Shown here piece by piece: positions 3,501-63,770 of a stretch of 64,000 nucleotides of DNA. Every line of letters starts with the position of its first letter. Position 1 is the first letter of the stretch. The translations under genes and the position numbers were made by a program. A model generated the notes under the pieces. That model searched no databases, was not told the origin of the DNA, and worked only from the letters and a program-made list of their open reading frames with translations. The DNA comes from Cetobacterium sp. 8H (GTDB taxonomy: Bacteria > Fusobacteriota > Fusobacteriia > Fusobacteriales > Fusobacteriaceae), in NCBI RefSeq assembly GCF_014250675.1, contig NZ_JACHTG010000004.1, forward strand, positions 558,001 to 622,000, given 5' to 3'.

Positions 3501-6500
3501 CTACATTCTTCCTATAACGTTCACAAACCATCCATGAGCTTTATAGTCATCTACACCTAAATTGTCACTAAAGCCTGAGAAGTTGTATCCTCCACCAAAC
3601 TTTAAGTTCTTATGCATATTTTTATAGATTCCAACGATGGCACCACTCGCAACATCACTTTCCTCTTCATCAACTAACCAGTGATACTGTCCATACACTT
3701 CCCAATCATTCATAACCATATAGTTTGCCTTAAGCCCAACTAGATAGATATTATTATTTACAGTCAAACTATCCCCTGATTCTCTGACATATTGATCTCG
3801 CTCTCTTCTATAAGCGCCCTTCAGACCTAAATCAAGTCTCTTTGTATAAGAATATATAGATTCAAACTCCACCACATAAGCCCGTGAATCCTCATCATTT
3901 CTAGGGTCATCATCTAGTATAACCGTGTATCTTGATAAGAAATTCAACCTATCATTATATATTGGTCTATATGCTAAACCTATGCTACTTTCAATAAATT
4001 TTGCATTGTACTCATCATCTGTAAAAGCAAAATTCAATTTTCCTGCAAATGTGTACTCCTCATCTATCACATAGTTAAAACTATTTGTAGTTAAGTATTG
4101 TTTTATTTTATCCTCATTTTCCTCCTCTCTATACTCAAGTTTATTTTTCAGTGTCAGCTTTGCAGTCTCCACCTTAGAATAGATTGAAGCCGCTCTTCTT
4201 TTACTTGTACCCTCATCATCTGGAAGGTCTATTTTCCCAAGTTGGAAAGATGCTCCAAATGAGATATCCTCATCCAGTTCATAATCTACTCCGTAGGACT
4301 CAGTCGAACCTTTCCCCTCACTCTCATTTAAGAACTGGTTCTCTTGATAGATTGAGATTTTATCTGTCACCTTAGCTCTTTGTCCAGCTGTAATTTTATT
4401 TGAATCCTCTTCGCCGTCCATACTATATCCTAGGTATACATCATAGTCTTCCATCAAGTTATAGTCCGCTCCAACCTCTGTGTAGTTACCTCTTGTTCCA
4501 ACACTTGTCTTCCCATCAACAGTCAGTTTCTCTGTCAATTTTTTCTCTCCACCAACTGTTATAATATCATTTTTATCATATCTATCACTCTTATTTAGAG
4601 TCACTTGTCCCTCTGTAAATACTTTTGTATCATCATCTATCTCATACTCAACTTTAGCTCCTAGAAGGTCACCTGTTCCAACATTTGAATCTCTAAGCTC
4701 TTCGACATGCTGGATAGCTAACCCTCCAACAACTCTATCAGTAAATAGGTATTCTATTTGAGCCCCGATAGACTTTATCCATCCAGTTAGTCTATTATCT
4801 AGGTCTCTCTCCTCCATAGATTCATATTTGATTTTAGAGTTTATTCTGTCTGTATTTCTAAGATTTATTTCAGCTCCATAGCTCTCAAACTCTTTATCTC
4901 CAAGCTCTGATGCAAAAGAGTATCCCTTCTCTTTTTTCTCATACCAAGCTCTTATATCATTTCCATATGGTGAGAATAGCTCAGGATTTAAATCCGCTAA
5001 GTTTAAAACTCCTGTAAAGTTGTAGGCGTTTCCAGATATTTTATCCATACCGCTTCCCACTTTATCAAAAGTTAATCCACCATCATATGAAACAAAGTTG
5101 TTGTCAGTTTGAACTCCTTCACTTCTACTTACCTCTCCTTTAAAGTATGTTCCCTCTGTCGCTTTTAAAGTCAGATCGACACCTGAAAGTGTGTAGTCGG
5201 TTCTATCTTTACTCTCTTTGATATATGTTCCACCAACTCCCACATGATCATTCATCCAAGTTCTGCCCTTAAATCCGTAATCGGTTTGATTTATGCTCTC
5301 GCTATTTTTTGGTATATATTCATAGTCTGCAATCAGATAGACATAGTTATCTCCACCCACAGAGTTTTGAATTATTCCATTTGAAGCTCCAGACATATTT
5401 CCAGATAGAGGTTTAGCCAGTATTATTCTTCCTTGATATGGGTCAAACTCATAGTCTTTTCCCTCTTCTAGGTAGATTATTTTACTTGTTAAGCCAGTAT
5501 TTGAATCCACAACTTTTATCCAGATTTTCTCGCTGCCGTTTAAAACATCACCATTTTTAAGGAAGTATAAACTACCTCCTGTTCCTAAAAATTCGTCATG
5601 TCCATATAGCGAGTCCGGTTCCGATGCAAACCCTATCAGAGTATTTTTTTCATCTCCAAACTCTGTTGTCTCACTACTTATATAACTTCCTTTAGCACCG
5701 TATAGACTTCTGTTATACTGAGTATATTTAGAACCTGTAAATCCTGTGTTGTAGTTACCCCACATCACACTAGATTTTTCATACTGTAGTTTTAGATAGA
5801 TTTTTCCATCTGTCGGTGCATCATTATAGATGTATGCTCTATCCCCATATGTTGGATAGTAGACATTTTCACTATCCTCAACTCTTTCAAACAGAGTCTG
5901 CTCATCTCTTTTTAAAATGTCATTGAACAATCTATCGACACTGTTTGCTTTGGTGTCAACCTGAACAGTCAATCTCCATTTATCCTTGTATTTACCTCTT
6001 CCATAGTAAGCGATTCTTCCCTCGTTATATATGTTATCGGCATAATATTCCGGTCCAAATGGATTTTCAACATCTAAAACTTCAGAGTTTCCAGAGATAT
6101 AGTTTCTTCCTAAAGAGAAATCCGCTATCCCTGTTTGAATATAATAGGTCGCAGGAACATTCATCTCAAGTTCATACATCTTTTCTGAGTTGTCCTCATA
6201 GACAAGTTTTACTGGTATCATATAGTTTGCACTAGGCATATATTTTGAAACCATAAATCTATCTTGATCCACATCATACTCATCATTTCCTATGTATATC
6301 TTTTCAACATCTTTTAGACCATCCCCTGTAAATCTTACCATACCTGTGTTGATACCTATGTTTTGAATTTGAAGTCCAACCTCTGTTTCATTCTCATAGT
6401 TAAATAGCTCAACCTCAGGCTTTCTAGATACAAGGTCGGTATATCCAACCTTTGTCGTATCAAATTTTCCATCAGCACTAAAAACTTTTAGTCTAAATCT

Positions 6501-57085: not shown

Positions 57086-59224
57086 TTAATTTGTTTTGAA
57101 TATAGTATCAAATTGATCGTTATATTTTAAAAATATATCTACAATTTTAGGATCAAAATGCTTTCCTCTTTCACTTTCTATTATCTCTTTTGCCTTTTCG
57201 TGAGAAAACCCTTTTTTGTAAACCCTCTCCTGTCTAAGAGCATCATATACATCTGCAAGAGAAACTATTCTTGCTTCTAGCGGTATATCTTCTCCAATTA
57301 ATCCCATTCCATATCCTTGCCCATCATATTTCTCGTGATGATAGAGTGCAATATTTTCAGCTATTTCTCCAACTTCCATCTTCACTATAAGCTTATGTCC
57401 TAAGGTAACATGACTTTTCATAGTTTCAAACTCTTCTTCAGTTAATTTTCCTGGTTTTTTTAAGATCATATCTGATACTCCAATTTTTCCAACATCATGT
57501 AAAGAAGCATAAGTTGATATCTCTTGAATAAATTTTCTTGAACACCCAAGTTTTTCTGCAATAAGTTTTGAATATAAGTTAACTCTCAATATATGATTTC
57601 CTGTATCTTCATCATTTAACTCATTTGCTATCTCAAAACTTTCTACTAAAGCTTTTGTTATTCTTTCTGCTCTAGACTTTTCACTCTGTGACTTCAATAA
57701 TAAAAAATACATAATAAAAATTATTATCATTGAAACTGTAACTATTAAAGAGATATATTTATAGTCTACATCCGGTGTATCTGGTATGTTTAGACGACTT
57801 GATAAAATATGAAAATCAGATGAATGATCCGGTAGAATTTTTTTTAACAGTCTCGCTATGTGTATATCTTCAATATTAACTCCAAAACCTACACTCGGTT
57901 TTTCATTATAAAAACCTACTATTTTTATCTTCTTCTCTAGATGCTTTCTTGAAATCGCAAGTGAAATCGTTCTAAAATCTCCCATCAACACTTCTATTTC
58001 TTTATCTAAGATAGCTTTAAAAGCTTCTTCATAAGAGTTGTATCTCACAATTGTTTTAACTTCATAAGTCCTTTCAAAATCTAAATCCAAATCTTCATGA
58101 GAAATATATCCTACTTTTTTATCTTTTAATCCTGTATTCAAATTTAAATTTTCAGAATTTACATTTGAAAAAAATGTTACATTACTTTCATAATATGGGA
58201 TTATATATTCAGATCTCTCTTTAAATAACTTGTAGTCAACCGCTTTTATATTGCTATATTCTCCAGATTTATAAGGTTTAAAAACAATTGGAACTCCCAC
58301 TATTTTTCCAAACTCTATCATTCTATCTGGTACATATCCAAAATAATTTTCTTTTTTTCTATAGAATAAAGGATTGATATCCTCTACATTAGGCATTGAT
58401 ACTACAATCTCTTTATAGTTCTCTTTAATATATTTCAAATCCTTATCATTTTTTAAAATTTGTTTATAGAATATAGGTCTTTCATTTTCTAAAACCTGAA
58501 CCATTCCATCATTAAAAAATTTCTTTTGATATTTTTCAACTATATTTGCTAAACATACCTCTTTTTTACTCACCATAATTTTCAAATTGTTTTTTGCAAT
58601 TCTATCTAAAACTTGAAAATCATAACTTTTAAATATATCTGTATTACTTTTCCCTAAGTATACATCTATATCTCCAGAATCTAGTCTTTTAAATCCATCT
58701 TCTGGGTTTTTTACATACACAATCTCTTTTATATTCTCATACTGCTTATTATAAGATTCTTTAAACTTTATTTCCTCTGTGCTGTCTTCAATAATTCCAA
58801 CTCTTTTTTCATGAATATCATTTAAATTTAAAATTTCAAAATCCTTTGTATAAAATCCTGTATAATAAGTATTTGGAGTTGCTACAAATTTATAAAAATT
58901 ATCCCTTGATTTATTTTTAGAAGCATTGATAACAATTTCTGAATTATTATTACAAATATCTTCTTTTATTAAACTTATATCTCTATCTCTAAATTTAAAT
59001 CTAACTCCTATTTTTTTTTCTAAATATTTAAAAAATTCCTTTTGAACCCCTCTCAATTCACCTTTTTCATCTCTATATAAAAATATAGATGTTGGTCTTA
59101 ATGAATCTATTTGAATTACTCTTCCTCTATTTTTCGAAATCCATGCATTCTCTTCAGTAGACAAATCTGCTGAAAAAATATTTATGACCATACTAAAAAA
59201 AACAATAAAAAAATTTTTTAACAA
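57086..59224 (-). CDS. Sensor with periplasmic binding domains and HD-GYP phosphodiesterase
   Basis: About 712 residues. A signal or anchor peptide (LLKNFFIVFFSMVINIFSA) precedes two SBP_bac_3-like domains (about 25-245 and 250-490), a TM helix (SLIVTVSMIIIFIMYFLLL, about 505-523) and an HD-GYP domain (about 535-705). HD motif: LHDVGKIG; the GYP position reads GQGYGMG, so the Pro is replaced by Gly. LADVYDALRQERVYKKGF is typical. It should hydrolyse cyclic-di-GMP under control of a periplasmic ligand. Start: TTG at 59224 has GGAG nine bases upstream; ATG at 59239 lacks a ribosome site but is possible, and a longer frame to 59302 is unlikely. Confidence 0.85.
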   Translation of the reverse strand: MLKNFFIVFFSMVINIFSADLSTEENAWISKNRGRVIQIDSLRPTSIFLYRDEKGELRGVQKEFFKYLEKKIGVRFKFRDRDISLIKEDICNNNSEIVINASKNKSRDNFYKFVATPNTYYTGFYTKDFEILNLNDIHEKRVGIIEDSTEEIKFKESYNKQYENIKEIVYVKNPEDGFKRLDSGDIDVYLGKSNTDIFKSYDFQVLDRIAKNNLKIMVSKKEVCLANIVEKYQKKFFNDGMVQVLENERPIFYKQILKNDKDLKYIKENYKEIVVSMPNVEDINPLFYRKKENYFGYVPDRMIEFGKIVGVPIVFKPYKSGEYSNIKAVDYKLFKERSEYIIPYYESNVTFFSNVNSENLNLNTGLKDKKVGYISHEDLDLDFERTYEVKTIVRYNSYEEAFKAILDKEIEVLMGDFRTISLAISRKHLEKKIKIVGFYNEKPSVGFGVNIEDIHIARLLKKILPDHSSDFHILSSRLNIPDTPDVDYKYISLIVTVSMIIIFIMYFLLLKSQSEKSRAERITKALVESFEIANELNDEDTGNHILRVNLYSKLIAEKLGCSRKFIQEISTYASLHDVGKIGVSDMILKKPGKLTEEEFETMKSHVTLGHKLIVKMEVGEIAENIALYHHEKYDGQGYGMGLIGEDIPLEARIVSLADVYDALRQERVYKKGFSHEKAKEIIESERGKHFDPKIVDIFLKYNDQFDTIFKTN

Positions 59225-59290
59225 AATCTCACACTCCATTATAATTTGAACATATATTGTAGCATATTTTTTATGTAATATAAATAAAAA

Positions 59291-59319
59291 AAGCCAAGAC
59301 AACCCGAGTTGCTTGACTT
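59291..59319 (-). terminator. Terminator of the mupG-IIA unit
   Basis: Imperfect inverted repeat AAGCCAAGACAAC / GTTGCTTGACTT around CCGA; on the minus strand followed by a T8 run. Fifteen bases after the IIA stop. Confidence 0.7.
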
Positions 59320-59334
59320 TTCAAGTAAATATAA

Positions 59335-59673
59335 TTATTTATTTTCTAAAGCATATAATCTTTTATTCATTTTTATCATCTTTTTTATTAACTCTCTTTC
59401 AGAAAGAGCAGTCATTAAATGATCTTGAGCATGAACAAAAACCATTGATAATGGAACTTTCTGTCCTCCAGCTTCTTTTTGAATCATATCAGTTTGAACA
59501 TGGTGAGCTTTTAATACTGCCGCATCACACTCTTTCATACACTCTTCTGCCTCTTCAAACTTTCCTTCTTCAGCAAACGCTAGAGCTTGGTGAGCGCATC
59601 CTTTAGCTTCCCCTGCATATGCAACTATTGAAAATATTATCTCTTCTAACTCATCTTCTGTAAAGTCTACCAT
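59335..59673 (-). CDS. PTS lactose/cellobiose-family IIA protein
   Basis: A 112-residue soluble IIA (LacF/ChbA family), a helical trimer. The phospho-histidine is H81 in FVHAQDHLMTA, with D84 the trimer metal ligand. EIIFSIVAYAGEAKGCAHQA at the N-terminus is also typical. It takes phosphate from HPr and passes it to the IIB encoded at 62.4 kb on the other strand. Start ATG follows CGGGAGGAATAAA, 19 bases after mupG. IIA is thus separated from IIB/IIC by the Rep_3-like gene and lies in the opposite orientation. Confidence 0.94.
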   Translation of the reverse strand: MVDFTEDELEEIIFSIVAYAGEAKGCAHQALAFAEEGKFEEAEECMKECDAAVLKAHHVQTDMIQKEAGGQKVPLSMVFVHAQDHLMTALSERELIKKMIKMNKRLYALENK

Positions 59674-59692: not shown

Positions 59693-60775
59693 TTATTTTA
59701 TTTTTACTTTAAATTTCTGCCATGGTTTTATACTATCTAAAAGTCCCATATACTCTGGTTTTATTTTCCCAACTACACTTGTTTTTCCACCATTTTTCAT
59801 ATCTTTTCTTGCTATATGGAGCTCTCCAGCATATTGTCCATAAAGTGATGACTCAATAAGAACATCTCCTTTTTTTATATCTGAAGGATTAAAAAGTTCA
59901 AAGTGTGTCCCTTTATATTTTACTCTTGACTGTGTCGATCTAACAACATATTCTCCTACATCTCCTCTTTGAAAATGTAACTCTTTTTCTATAATTGCTC
60001 TTTCCACTTCACCAACACCTTCATAAACTTCGCATTCTAACTCTAACATCTCTTTATTTATTCCAGCAAGTGCTTTTAATTCATCCTCTGTTGGAAAACA
60101 ATTTGATATAATTACTACATCAATTCCCTCATTGAAAAGTTCTCTACCTTGAACTTCTATAGGAAGGTCTCTATGCTCTTCTAGAGTACAAAGCCCATCA
60201 TTCACTGGCCAAGGACCAAATGTCCCTGTTTGAGCTGTTACAAATGCTGCTGTCGTAAGTGAAAATCCTTTAAATCTTTTATTACAATTTCTAAAGTGCT
60301 CTCTTGAAAGCCCTGTATATCTATGTGGATAAAAATTATGACATCCTACTAATTTTTCTCTGTTCGGCATATAATCCATAATTGTGTTTACATAATTTGT
60401 ATCTTGGCTCATATTTATTTCAACAACAAGTCCATGTTCATTGAAAGTCATTATACTTTCTTCATTCCCAGAAAATCCTAAATCAAGCCTAACTCCATAA
60501 GCTCCTATCTCTTTGAAAAAAGATAGATCTTCATAACTTATTCCTAATTTACTAAAAATTGATGGAGCTACATCTACCATAACTTGCATCCCGAATCTGT
60601 TTGCATATGCTATCGTTTCTTTAAATTCGTTTACTATTGCATTTTTATCCCCTTCAACTGATAGTAAACATGTAAATACTCTCTTATATCCATACTTTGC
60701 TGCCATCTCTATATAATTCTTATTCTCATCTAAAGTTGCATGAAACGGATAGATTGAAATTCCTAACTCCCTCAT
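59693..60775 (-). CDS. MupG/DUF871-family 6-phospho-glycosidase (TIM barrel)
   Basis: A 360-residue protein of the MupG/DUF871 family. An N-terminal TIM barrel (about 1-245; ELGISIYPFHATLDENKNYI at the start, HNFYPHRYTGLSREHF in mid-barrel) is followed by a cyclophilin-like C-terminal domain (about 250-360). Staphylococcal MupG is a 6-phospho-N-acetylmuramidase acting on PTS-imported MurNAc-GlcNAc. Here it is transcribed with a lactose/cellobiose-type IIA, so hydrolysis of a phosphorylated disaccharide is likely. The actual sugar is not determined by sequence. Start ATG follows AGGAGGGAG. Confidence 0.85.
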   Translation of the reverse strand: MRELGISIYPFHATLDENKNYIEMAAKYGYKRVFTCLLSVEGDKNAIVNEFKETIAYANRFGMQVMVDVAPSIFSKLGISYEDLSFFKEIGAYGVRLDLGFSGNEESIMTFNEHGLVVEINMSQDTNYVNTIMDYMPNREKLVGCHNFYPHRYTGLSREHFRNCNKRFKGFSLTTAAFVTAQTGTFGPWPVNDGLCTLEEHRDLPIEVQGRELFNEGIDVVIISNCFPTEDELKALAGINKEMLELECEVYEGVGEVERAIIEKELHFQRGDVGEYVVRSTQSRVKYKGTHFELFNPSDIKKGDVLIESSLYGQYAGELHIARKDMKNGGKTSVVGKIKPEYMGLLDSIKPWQKFKVKIK

Positions 60776-60808: not shown

Positions 60809-60837
60809 GTTTTACTAGAAAAACAAAAGTAAGTCAA
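60809..60837 (-). promoter_or_regulatory. Promoter of mupG-IIA
   Basis: Minus strand TTGACT (60837-60832), 17-base spacer and TAAAAC (60814-60809), a weak -10. A GACGAAAAAA copy starts 40 bases before the -35 box, which suggests the promoter depends on, or is controlled by, a factor binding there. Confidence 0.5.
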
Positions 60838-60867
60838 GCACTAAAACTTTAGGAATATTTAAAACTA

Positions 60868-60877
60868 TTTTTTCGTC
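60868..60877 (-). promoter_or_regulatory. GACGA-A-tract motif, copy 1 (upstream of mupG)
   Basis: ATTAGACGAAAAAATAG on the minus strand, core GACGAAAAAA at 60877-60868. Same core as three copies on the other side of the Rep_3-like gene. Confidence 0.45.
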
Positions 60878-60934
60878 TAATTACCCTAATATTTATAGCT
60901 ATTTATTTCTTTTTTTTAAATTAAACGCTTAAAT

Positions 60935-62080
60935 TTATTTTTTTTCTTGTGTAGCATTTTCAGCTATTTTATATATCTCAATTGTACTTTCTCTTCCTTT
61001 ATCAGCATACAATATCTCAATTTTATGTCTCTCATCCTTATACTGTAATAACTCCCCTACTTTCATATTTCTTAAAGTTTTTAAAAAGTTATAGTTATAG
61101 TAAAATTTACATTTCAAAAGTTCTTTATAAAGTCTTGATTCAAATATAAATCTATTCGAAAAAATATCTGTAGTCTTATTTATAAGAATATATCGTTCTT
61201 GTGACTCAATATTTGAATTTTCTTTCAGTGCTAAAGATATCGCTTCATCTAAAGACCCAGAAATACCTTTATCCAAATGATATAAATTATTTCTTACAAA
61301 ATCTATTCCCTCTTTTAATAGAGCTTCTTCAATTATCTTACTCACCTTTGCAATAGAATCTACTCTATCTCTTAGTGGTAACAATAGACTATCTATCTCT
61401 CCGGCTATAATTGGAGAAAGTTTATGATTAAATATAAATTCAATCTCCATAATCTTACTTGTAAATCCTTCACTATTTTTTATTTTTTTATAATCTACAC
61501 TATATTTAGTTAACTCATTTATATCATCTAATGCTGGTCTTAAAATAGTTTTTTCAAAATCATAAAATCTTTCGTAGTTTTCCTGTCCAACTCCTAAAAG
61601 TTCTTTTAATTGATCTCTTGTCAATACAAAGCCACCATTCATTCTATTTTTTATCAAAGCCAAATATAGTTGAAAACTCTTTTTTTCTTTGAATAGTAAT
61701 ATCAGCAATAGGTCTATGTCATCAAATATTCCACTCTCTTTTAAAGATTTTAACGATCTTGAAATATACACTCTATATTCATCTCTATTTTTCATATAAA
61801 AATCAAATATCGAAAAAGATGCAAAAAATATCTCTTCATTTTTTTCTATCAATTTTAAATGTATTCTTCTTTTAGAAAATTTATCTAAAAAATCTTCTAT
61901 TGATCCTCTTTCTTTTACTATACTTCTAAGCTCTTTTTCTGTAAAAATTATATATTTTTCATTTTTCCCTTTATACTTATCTCTTATTATTTCTAAAAAA
62001 TCTCTTTCTTTTTTGTTAAGTTTTTTATCTGTATCAATAAAAATATCATTTTTAGAAAAATCAAATGTCATTTTTTTCAT
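60935..62080 (-). CDS. Rep_3-fold (plasmid initiator-like) protein, probable regulator
   Basis: A 381-residue protein. The middle (about 125-225) has the second winged-helix signature of the RepB/Rep_3 initiators: FQLYLALIKNRMNGG, LTRDQLKELLG, YERFYDFEKTILRPALDDIN, and YSVDYKKIKNSEGF ending in IEFIF. The N-terminal part (about 20-120) could be the first winged helix, and about 150 C-terminal residues are unrecognised. No plasmid maintenance genes are nearby. It sits between oppositely oriented PTS units, and copies of a GACGA motif flank it, including at its own promoter. A repurposed initiator acting as transcription factor is therefore inferred; a true replication role is not excluded. Start ATG follows GGGAG. 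Confidence 0.7.
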   Translation of the reverse strand: MKKMTFDFSKNDIFIDTDKKLNKKERDFLEIIRDKYKGKNEKYIIFTEKELRSIVKERGSIEDFLDKFSKRRIHLKLIEKNEEIFFASFSIFDFYMKNRDEYRVYISRSLKSLKESGIFDDIDLLLILLFKEKKSFQLYLALIKNRMNGGFVLTRDQLKELLGVGQENYERFYDFEKTILRPALDDINELTKYSVDYKKIKNSEGFTSKIMEIEFIFNHKLSPIIAGEIDSLLLPLRDRVDSIAKVSKIIEEALLKEGIDFVRNNLYHLDKGISGSLDEAISLALKENSNIESQERYILINKTTDIFSNRFIFESRLYKELLKCKFYYNYNFLKTLRNMKVGELLQYKDERHKIEILYADKGRESTIEIYKIAENATQEKK

Positions 62081-62160
62081 GTTTTAATCTCCCTTTTTTA
62101 GATTTTTCCATTTTTTTTTAATTTTTTTTGTTTTTTTTTCTTATATTTTTAGAAAAATTA

Positions 62161-62188
62161 GACGATTTTTTTTAGTTTTTTTTTCGTC
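62161..62188. promoter_or_regulatory. Inverted pair of GACGA-A/T-tract motifs, copies 2 and 3
   Basis: GACGA at 62161-62165 (plus) and GACGA at 62188-62184 (minus) face each other across 18 bases of nearly pure T on the plus strand. Outer flanks are TTA and GTTAA. Likely operator overlapping the Rep_3-like gene's own promoter. Confidence 0.5.
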
Positions 62189-62254
62189 GTTAATAAAGAA
62201 TACATTATTTAGCTCTTTTTTTCAAGTTTTTTTTAATTTTTTTTATTGTTATTT

Positions 62255-62264
62255 GACGAAAAAA
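62255..62264 (+). promoter_or_regulatory. GACGA-A-tract motif, copy 4 (upstream of PTS IIB)
   Basis: TTTGACGAAAAAAGT, core at 62255-62264, 28 bases before the -35 box of the IIB promoter. The equivalent distance at mupG is 40, about one helical turn more. Confidence 0.45.
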
Positions 62265-62282
62265 GTATCATTTTTGACAAAT

Positions 62283-62311
62283 TTGACTTTTTTTAAAACA
62301 CATTTTATAAT
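62283..62311 (+). promoter_or_regulatory. Promoter of PTS IIB-porin-IIC
   Basis: TTGACT (62283-62288), 17-base spacer, perfect TATAAT (62306-62311), about 70 bases before the IIB ATG. Confidence 0.7.
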
Positions 62312-62380
62312 CATTTTATAAACATATTGGAAAGTTAAAGTTCAAAAAAAATTTTAAACTTTTAAAAAGGAGAAATTATT

Positions 62381-62683
62381 ATGAAAAAAATATTATTACT
62401 TTGTTCTGCAGGAATGTCAACTAGTATGGTTGTTAAAAAAATGGAAGCTGCTGCTGCTGCTGAAAATATAGAAGTAAAAATCGACGCTGTTGGTTTAGAG
62501 CAATTCCACGAGCTATTACCACAATACGATGTCTTCTTATTAGGACCACAAGTTAGATTTAAAAAGGCTGAGCTTTCTGCTCTTGCAGCCGCTGCAGGAA
62601 AGCCTTTAGATGTTATAGATACAATGGCTTATGGAACATTAAATGGAAAGAAAATTTTAGATTTCGCTCTAAATATGAAATAA
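62381..62683 (+). CDS. PTS lactose/cellobiose-family IIB protein
   Basis: A 100-residue soluble IIB (ChbB family). The phospho-cysteine is C8 in ILLLCSAGMSTSMVVKKM, with the P-loop-like turn CSAGMST. YDVFLLGPQVRF and LDVIDTMAYGTLNGKKILDF are typical. It receives phosphate from IIA H81 and gives it to the sugar bound by IIC. Start ATG follows AAAAAGGAGAA. It heads the rightward unit with a porin and IIC. Confidence 0.95.
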   Translation: MKKILLLCSAGMSTSMVVKKMEAAAAAENIEVKIDAVGLEQFHELLPQYDVFLLGPQVRFKKAELSALAAAAGKPLDVIDTMAYGTLNGKKILDFALNMK

Positions 62684-62714: not shown

Positions 62715-63770
62715 ATGAAAAAATCACTTTACTTATTAGCTGCTTTATCATTATTAGGAACAAACGTTTTTGCAAAAGAGGTTGTAGCTGAACCTGCAAT
62801 GGAATCATCTAAAGAGGTTATTGTTGAGCCAGTAGTTATTGTTGAAGAAGCTCCAGTTGAAACTTGGAAGTTTGCAGGAAGAATGTACTTAGAGACTGAG
62901 GATTTTGATAACAGTTCTAAAATCAGTAGAGGTAGCCAAGGGTTTTTTGAGATGGAAGATTTAGGTGACGGTGCTGATGGCCTTTTCTGGGGGACAGGAG
63001 TTTCTGGTACAAAAGGTAAGTTAACTTTAGATCTAAATGTTGAAAGAAGATACTTTGGAGACCTATCTGGAGTTGTAGGTGGATCTGAAAATGATGCAAC
63101 AAGAGTTGATTGGAAAGTTAGATATCAACTATTTGAAAAACAAGCATTCCACTTAAAATATAGAAATGAAAAAGCAGATTCTTCAAGAAGAGATAGAGTT
63201 GAACTTGGAACAGATTGGAATCACTTTGATGGACTTTTTGCTGGATGGTTTGTTGTTGGTCATGACGAAGATAAAGCCGAGGGAGCATTCAATGATAAAG
63301 GAGAATATACACCTTCTGATCGTACAAATGGAAGTTACTGGGAAGGAGATTTTGGACCATCATTTAAGTTAACGGATTCATTATCTTTAAATCCTACTAT
63401 CTATACAACTGGAGAGTACTATGACGGTTATGAAATGGTTGAGACTCAGTTAAGAATTATGATGCCATACCAGTTAAATGATAAGATTACTATTATGCCT
63501 AGAGTTAGAATTACTTTAGATAAAACTGTTGATGATAAATTAAATGGTTCTTATGTTACTAACTATGAGCAAAAGCTTGGAGATAGAGTTAGATATGAGC
63601 TAATGGCTAATGCTGTACTTACAGATAACTTATCTGCTTTTGTAGGAGTAGCTTATGATGCTTCTAAAAGAGACTTTAAAAACTCTGATAAGTTTGGGTC
63701 TGGAAAAGATGGAAAGCAAGATGCTAACATGTGGTGGTCATATGTTGGGTTAAACTATAACTTCAATTAA
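62715..63770 (+). CDS. Outer-membrane porin-like beta-barrel
   Basis: A 351-residue exported protein. The signal peptide (MKKSLYLLAALSLLGTNVFA) is cleaved before KEVVAEP. A Glu/Val/Pro-rich linker (about 22-50) is followed by a 300-residue barrel with amphipathic strands such as WKFAGRMYLETEDF, LTLDLNVERRYFGDL and YELMANAVLTDNLSAFVGVAY. It ends WWSYVGLNYNFN; the aromatic-rich last strand is typical of outer-membrane proteins. The position inside a PTS operon suggests a sugar-oligomer channel (KdgM- or ChiP-like role). Family not firmly identified. Start ATG follows CGGGAGGGTAACAA. Confidence 0.82.
   Translation: MKKSLYLLAALSLLGTNVFAKEVVAEPAMESSKEVIVEPVVIVEEAPVETWKFAGRMYLETEDFDNSSKISRGSQGFFEMEDLGDGADGLFWGTGVSGTKGKLTLDLNVERRYFGDLSGVVGGSENDATRVDWKVRYQLFEKQAFHLKYRNEKADSSRRDRVELGTDWNHFDGLFAGWFVVGHDEDKAEGAFNDKGEYTPSDRTNGSYWEGDFGPSFKLTDSLSLNPTIYTTGEYYDGYEMVETQLRIMMPYQLNDKITIMPRVRITLDKTVDDKLNGSYVTNYEQKLGDRVRYELMANAVLTDNLSAFVGVAYDASKRDFKNSDKFGSGKDGKQDANMWWSYVGLNYNFN

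Follow-up and report, generated by a model that had tools for sequence, protein, structure and literature searches.

Rep_3-like proteins beside the sugar-uptake operons of Fusobacteriota: a probable family of regulators derived from a plasmid initiator

In F, dimers of RepE bind two inverted repeats which lie between the promoter of the gene and its open reading frame (PMC13028717). This initiator (Rep_3 / RepE-pi; PF21205, PF01051) is the closest described relative of the protein of Cetobacterium sp. 8H which we study here: its two winged helices superpose on residues 8–222 of our protein with Z 13.5. The operator layout, which for our protein is a layout of sequence, is also the same: inverted half-sites between promoter and open reading frame, direct half-sites elsewhere. 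However the Cetobacterium gene has no iteron array, is chromosomal and divergent from PTS operons, and codes for an extra C-terminal domain; its candidate sites have the core ACGA(A/T)(A/T) and are in register with the operon promoters. RctB of Vibrio cholerae chromosome 2 is a distant relative by fold (Foldseek E 1.6e-5). It is a plasmid-type initiator domesticated by its host, but it stayed a replication initiator, unlike the role which we propose here. Another group of described systems, the PRD proteins of the BglG/LicR type, RpiR, GntR, LacI and DeoR, are also found beside a PTS operon, one per operon, but with a different DNA-binding fold. None of the PRD, RpiR, GntR, LacI or DeoR domains was detected in our protein or in 28 aligned members of its family.

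The domains and the divergent-regulator layout are already known; what appears to be new is that they are combined and that the protein descends from an initiator. We found no description of a Rep_3-derived family dedicated to uptake operons in the open-access literature. Our main reading, to which we give a probability of about 0.7, is that the protein is a Rep_3-derived activator of the local MurNAc-disaccharide-type PTS locus, which also represses itself and comes from an initiator recruited apparently once. We call it the regulator. The window, the whole stretch of 64,000 nucleotides which was analysed, has the following genes at this locus:

59335..59673, minus strand: PTS lactose/cellobiose-type IIA (Pfam)
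59693..60775, minus strand: mupG, 6-phospho-N-acetylmuramidase family (MupG_N and MupG_C matches)
60935..62080, minus strand: Rep_3-derived regulator gene, 381 aa, with WH1 and WH2 at about residues 8–222 and a C-terminal alpha/beta domain at 219–381
62081..62380: intergenic control region from which the regulator and the IIB operon diverge
62381..62683, plus strand: PTS lactose/cellobiose-type IIB (Pfam)
62715..63770, plus strand: FomA-like outer-membrane porin (E=1e-10, below the curated cut-off)
63891 (about)..64000, plus strand: start of the PTS IIC gene, 445 aa, which extends past the window end

The initial annotation had described a 381-residue Rep_3-like protein between a mupG-IIA unit and an IIB-porin-IIC unit, with no plasmid maintenance genes nearby. 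The open reading frame, the Pfam match and the flanking genes (mupG and IIA-lac to the left; IIB-lac, porin and IIC to the right) confirm it, and no partition, toxin-antitoxin or mobilisation genes were seen in the 16 kb around the regulator. A plasmid with its origin here had also been considered; the contig is not of plasmid size, with 1.75 Mb in a genome of 2.57 Mb, and the neighbours are PTS genes. MupG is presumably a 6-phospho-N-acetylmuramidase, as its family indicates, and for this reason we take the sugar to be of the MurNAc-GlcNAc-type disaccharide kind. The genome has two further chromosomal genes of the regulator type, both divergent from PTS operons, one with a fructose-type IIABC and the other with IIA / asparaginase-like / IIC / IIB. 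The protein encoded at 57086–59302, which adjoins the locus, is HD-GYP-like, by eye, in its C-terminal part and also has regions which resemble periplasmic binding proteins; a relative is found in the same place in G003, while most congeners have different genes there.

The arrangement mupG-IIA / regulator / IIB-porin-IIC is kept in nine other genomes, with 82–91% identity in eight Cetobacterium and 45% in G020. Orthologues of mupG are found in the same nine genomes; they are absent from the congeners G001, G004 and G011, which likewise have no regulator orthologue. More distant mupG copies exist in Leptotrichiaceae without this regulator. A single operon, divergent from the regulator, unites these genes in Psychrilyobacter (L180). 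Several loci of Leptotrichiaceae (L066, L067, L069, L117, L168, L171, L175) have the IIA unit and the IIB-IIC unit on opposite sides of the regulator, so that the split layout recurs. The dN/dS values of the regulator orthologues, 0.03–0.11, indicate strong purifying selection.

Only one Pfam family passes the cut-off in the 381-aa protein: Rep3_C, which corresponds to WH2 (E=3.6e-11). A search of the PDB with the single sequence gave no match. A profile of 28 family members matches RepE of F (1REP, 2Z9O and relatives) with E ~5e-10 at profile positions 24–217, a region which spans both winged helices. The AlphaFold2 model of the regulator (pLDDT 81.8) gives Z 13.5 with 1REP and 13.2 with pi (2NRA) for residues 8–222; its matches to RepE and pi structures on iteron or operator DNA are mostly in the range Z 11–13.5. 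The initial annotation had recognised a Rep_3 signature in the second winged helix; Pfam, profile and structure together establish the tandem WH1-WH2 fold of Rep_3 initiators, of the RepE/pi type. The C-terminal region, modelled alone (pLDDT 79), is helical at first and then has a beta-alpha-alpha-beta-beta-beta part. It has no confident match in the PDB: the best Foldseek E is 0.095 and the best Z 5.2. A longin/roadblock-like identity was considered; the matches are weak and no fold has been assigned. The suggestion that this domain senses PTS phosphorylation through a conserved histidine is not borne out, because its alignment has no invariant residue. Presumably it senses a phosphosugar or another cue.

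We have placed in their neighbourhoods the Rep3_C genes among the matches listed for 61 Fusobacteriales genomes. The regulator group has 78 members among these matches (42 non-redundant), and in all of them the first upstream gene is divergent and part of an uptake locus; 77 were assigned by script, and the other one is L039, whose IIB gene was masked by a spurious open reading frame. PTS genes are present in the divergent run of 75 of the 78 listed members and belong to at least six types: lac/cel, fru, glc/mal, man, gat and gut. Of the three exceptions, L065 faces a GH1 enzyme, L126 an ABC sugar-binding protein and L060 a PRD/SFCGS cluster. The remaining Rep genes, of plasmid type, are mostly found in small contigs, usually with longer upstream gaps, and no PTS link was found for them. 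The homologues of the regulator could have been mostly genes of iteron plasmids unrelated to the PTS, and the survey went the other way: the close ones are mostly chromosomal, adjacent to PTS genes and devoid of iteron arrays. The neighbourhood was used for the grouping, and therefore the independent tree is the test that counts. When 85 dereplicated proteins are placed in a tree, the regulators are parted from all other Reps by a branch with SH-aLRT 100. On the regulator side we find all 42 PTS-linked proteins, together with L085, at a contig edge, and L134.

The extra C-terminal domain is real and specific to the regulator clade: among the matches listed it is found in 64 of 76 proteins of the regulator type and in none of 47 of the plasmid type. 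It is present in 51 of 98 Fusobacteriota genomes, with up to 8 copies per genome; where examined, nearly all copies are beside uptake operons. One search outside Fusobacteriota gave few matches, which resemble plasmid or phage Reps and not regulators, and a phage collection had no match. Loci from genomes outside the survey were held out, and in each of these 20 the regulator has an uptake operon on its divergent side. This operon is of PTS type in 14 loci and of the oligopeptide-type ABC kind in two; the other four have sugar-acid-like clusters, in which DgaE/DgaF-type, SFCGS and PRD genes are found. The ABC operons and the sugar-acid-like clusters were read by eye from the sequence and from likeness to L060 and L055. 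At L243, L251, L253, L260 and L060 the regulator is divergent from an SFCGS/PRD cluster which also has DgaE/DgaF-type genes and codes for membrane proteins; such clusters are possibly an uptake system of unclear type.

The picture of one odd locus is too narrow: the regulators are a radiated family, wider than the initial annotation thought. Its idea of an initiator domesticated into a sugar-operon regulator is supported by the single clade, the PTS linkage, the absence of iteron arrays and the C-terminal domain. We propose that a plasmid Rep_3 initiator was recruited, apparently once, in an ancestor of Fusobacteriales; it would have lost its iteron array, gained the C-terminal domain and radiated as a local regulator of PTS and related uptake operons. 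One might take the gene for what is left of an integrated plasmid, or for a passenger of the PTS locus with no regulatory role, as these genomes commonly have plasmid-borne Rep genes and some regulator-type copies are found on plasmid-like replicons (G005:C6, C. somerae p1). However the strong purifying selection (dN/dS 0.03–0.11), the clade apart from plasmid Reps, the divergent layout conserved across many PTS types, the C-terminal domain missing in plasmid Reps and the conserved sites described below already contradict such a reading, which we consider extremely improbable.

A DNA motif shared by the upstream regions of both PTS units and of the regulator had also been proposed, and it is real. 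In the 64 kb of the window GACGAAAAAA occurs four times, three of them at the locus; 0.27 occurrences are expected and none of 100 shuffles reaches four. The putative sites, with promoters predicted by consensus matching, are:

60809..60837, minus strand: predicted mupG-IIA promoter TTGACT-17-TAAAAC
60867..60880, minus strand: putative site 4, TTAGACGAAAAAAT, upstream of mupG, its core 39 nt upstream of the mupG -35
62158..62171, plus strand: putative site 1, TTAGACGATTTTTT, which pairs invertedly with site 2 in the regulator leader and is conserved in orthologues
62178..62188, minus strand: putative site 2, GACGAAAAAAA, partner of site 1
62197..62225, minus strand: predicted regulator promoter TTGAAA-17-TATTCT
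62251..62264, plus strand: putative site 3, ATTTGACGAAAAAA, whose ACGA core begins 27 nt upstream of the IIB operon -35
62283..62311, plus strand: predicted IIB-porin-IIC promoter TTGACT-17-TATAAT, conserved in orthologues

Sites 1–4 have nearly fixed positions in nine Cetobacterium sequences, that of the window and eight orthologues. In these sequences the forms are ATTAGACGA for site 1, TTTTTTCGT for site 2 and [A/T]TT[T/C]GACGAAAAAAGT for site 3; site 2 is a weaker AACGA in most of the Cetobacterium orthologues. The inverted pair formed by sites 1 and 2 lies between the predicted regulator promoter and the ATG. Four matches of ATTNGACGAAAAAA are found in the whole genome, two of them at this locus, which also has a third close variant. 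Two more strong genomic matches, one in a moeA-like gene and the other before an outer-membrane gene, were not accepted as members of the regulon. A perfect ATTTGACGAAAAAA is found before the gene of a large outer-membrane protein (L240:3835-3848, G000:C4:456334), with no regulator nearby.

The complete WH1-WH2 fold and the A/T-rich leader could be taken as signs of a protein which is still a replication initiator and fires a chromosomal mini-origin. However there is no iteron array next to the regulator: it has only four dispersed sites, none in tandem, against 3–8 direct repeats in most plasmid relatives. Furthermore a genome may have as many as eight copies, and of those examined nearly all are beside uptake operons. 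Of all the readings considered here, a mini-origin is the least probable.

The core ACGAWW (ACGA[AT][AT]) recurs in the family. Its density is 10.3 per kb in the 78 regulator regions and 0.97 per kb in 147 intergenic regions elsewhere in these loci; at least two ACGAAA are present in 49 of the former and in one of the latter. The same core was recovered by counting de novo in further groups of the family. A GGTAACC motif from the first de novo run was dropped, as it was derived from the plasmid iteron of G005:C6. A few regulator regions have no ACGAWW (L073, L105, L138, L140). Convergent pairs of sites span 25–27 nt (40 cases), while direct pairs cluster at 52–53, 72–74, 84–85 and 94 nt. The direct spacings correspond to whole helical turns (n=32 non-redundant, R=0.63 at 10.4 bp, Rayleigh p ~4e-6), which would fit looping or cooperative binding: sites on the same face of the DNA may be looped together.

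The position with respect to the promoter is also conserved. In 22 of the 42 non-redundant loci the operon-facing core is 25–29 nt upstream of the best predicted -35, often 27–28 nt, and a shifted control gives a mean of 1.5 and a maximum of 7 in 20,000. No minus-strand site has this register in the 42 loci. The range 25–29 was picked after viewing this first set; the held-out set is an independent test, in which 7 of 20 loci, some of them mutually orthologous, have the register against 0.8 expected. About half of the loci have no operon-facing site in this register; some have it at 15, 18 or 38 nt. The locus of the window has the traits of the family: it is divergent from an uptake operon, with the clade-specific C-terminal domain and ACGAWW sites in fixed geometry.

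Most likely the regulator binds GACGA-A-tract sites through WH2 and WH1. From a position near -60 at the IIB-porin-IIC promoter it would activate this unit; at the mupG-IIA promoter its position would be more distant by about one helical turn, and from there it would activate the other unit. A dimer on the inverted pair, placed between its promoter and its start codon, would repress the regulator gene, as in RepE. It is only from the position of the sites that we infer activation rather than repression: a single operon-facing site at about -60 would fit a class-I activator, and the inverted pair would fit autorepression. The same family and the same sites could also correspond to a repressor of PTS operons which is released by a sugar phosphate; plasmid Reps are known as autorepressors and the phased sites could make a repression loop. 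However there is no overlap between the operon-facing site and the promoter. In many loci with different PTS types the site is 27–28 nt upstream of the -35, a class-I activator position, and always in one orientation; the inverted pair is instead on the regulator's own leader. A repressor of the operons appears unlikely, and we prefer activation.

The site is short and its binding by the regulator is inferred. The ACGAWW sites might belong to another, global regulator of PTS genes, the Rep-like protein having a different role. This is very unlikely: elsewhere in these loci, in the 147 intergenic regions compared, the density of the sites is about ten times lower, they are also present in the leader of the rep-like gene itself, and two of the four genomic ATTNGACGAAAAAA matches with the third close variant are at this locus. 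Plasmid Reps with the same WH2 signature also have GACGA iterons, and for this reason we tie the regulator to the motif. The plasmid-type Reps of these genomes mostly have iteron arrays, with many different sequences. Two of them, L166 and L156 (G028), share with the regulators the WH2 signature YxRFYD, and their iterons, TAAGACGAAGGAATCTGACATTT in L166 and ATAAGACGAGAAATTAAGG in L156, have the GACGA core of the regulator sites. Unlike the regulators they are found in small contigs (9.5 and 5.1 kb), have iteron arrays and are on the plasmid side of the tree. L158 has GACGA repeats and a different WH2; L157, with a near YxRFYD signature, has no GACGA repeats, and this is also the case for most other plasmid Reps. 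The co-variation of signature and core, in few cases, is suggestive of a link between protein and motif.

For the family as a whole, we lean towards a new family of transcription factors which arose from a plasmid initiator in one step. It would have kept the two binding modes of the initiator, to single sites and to an inverted dimer operator, and turned them to activation of sugar-uptake operons and self-repression, acquired a ligand-sensing C-terminal domain and become a widely used local PTS regulator of Fusobacteriota. If this is true, it is a clear case of the initiator of a selfish replicon turned into a family of metabolic switches, and the plasmid Reps which share the DNA core are possible intermediates for how an initiator became a regulator. 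For a phylum whose bacteria live in the gut and the mouth, a regulator, an operator and a regulon of sugar uptake are predicted. Many genes labelled "replication initiation protein" would acquire a likely function, and the label could mislead plasmid detection when it is given to regulators. An example is WP_330112116.1 of C. somerae, which has this annotation; it is the product of a family member found beside a mannose-type PTS operon on the 664-kb plasmid p1 (L238:7944-9176).

Some individual replicons have peculiar features. In a Leptotrichia (G043, L121:4577-5510) the regulator gene is split into two open reading frames and the IIB-IIC operon is still there. The 65-kb contig G005:C6, which has a repeated stretch, carries a Rep of plasmid type, whose iterons are AAGGTAACC, and also a copy of the regulator type (L154 and L174); the latter adjoins a mannose-type PTS. 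L158 (G038:C2) has a tandem of three rep genes, almost identical and spaced by about 6 kb, in a 298-kb replicon, with GACGAC repeats upstream of each of them. In the contig G000:C1 (L082), with 29,248 bp, the same plasmid rep domain is found at positions 5,572 and 20,196. Their distance, 14,624, is exactly half of the contig, which is therefore probably a 14.6-kb plasmid assembled as a dimer.
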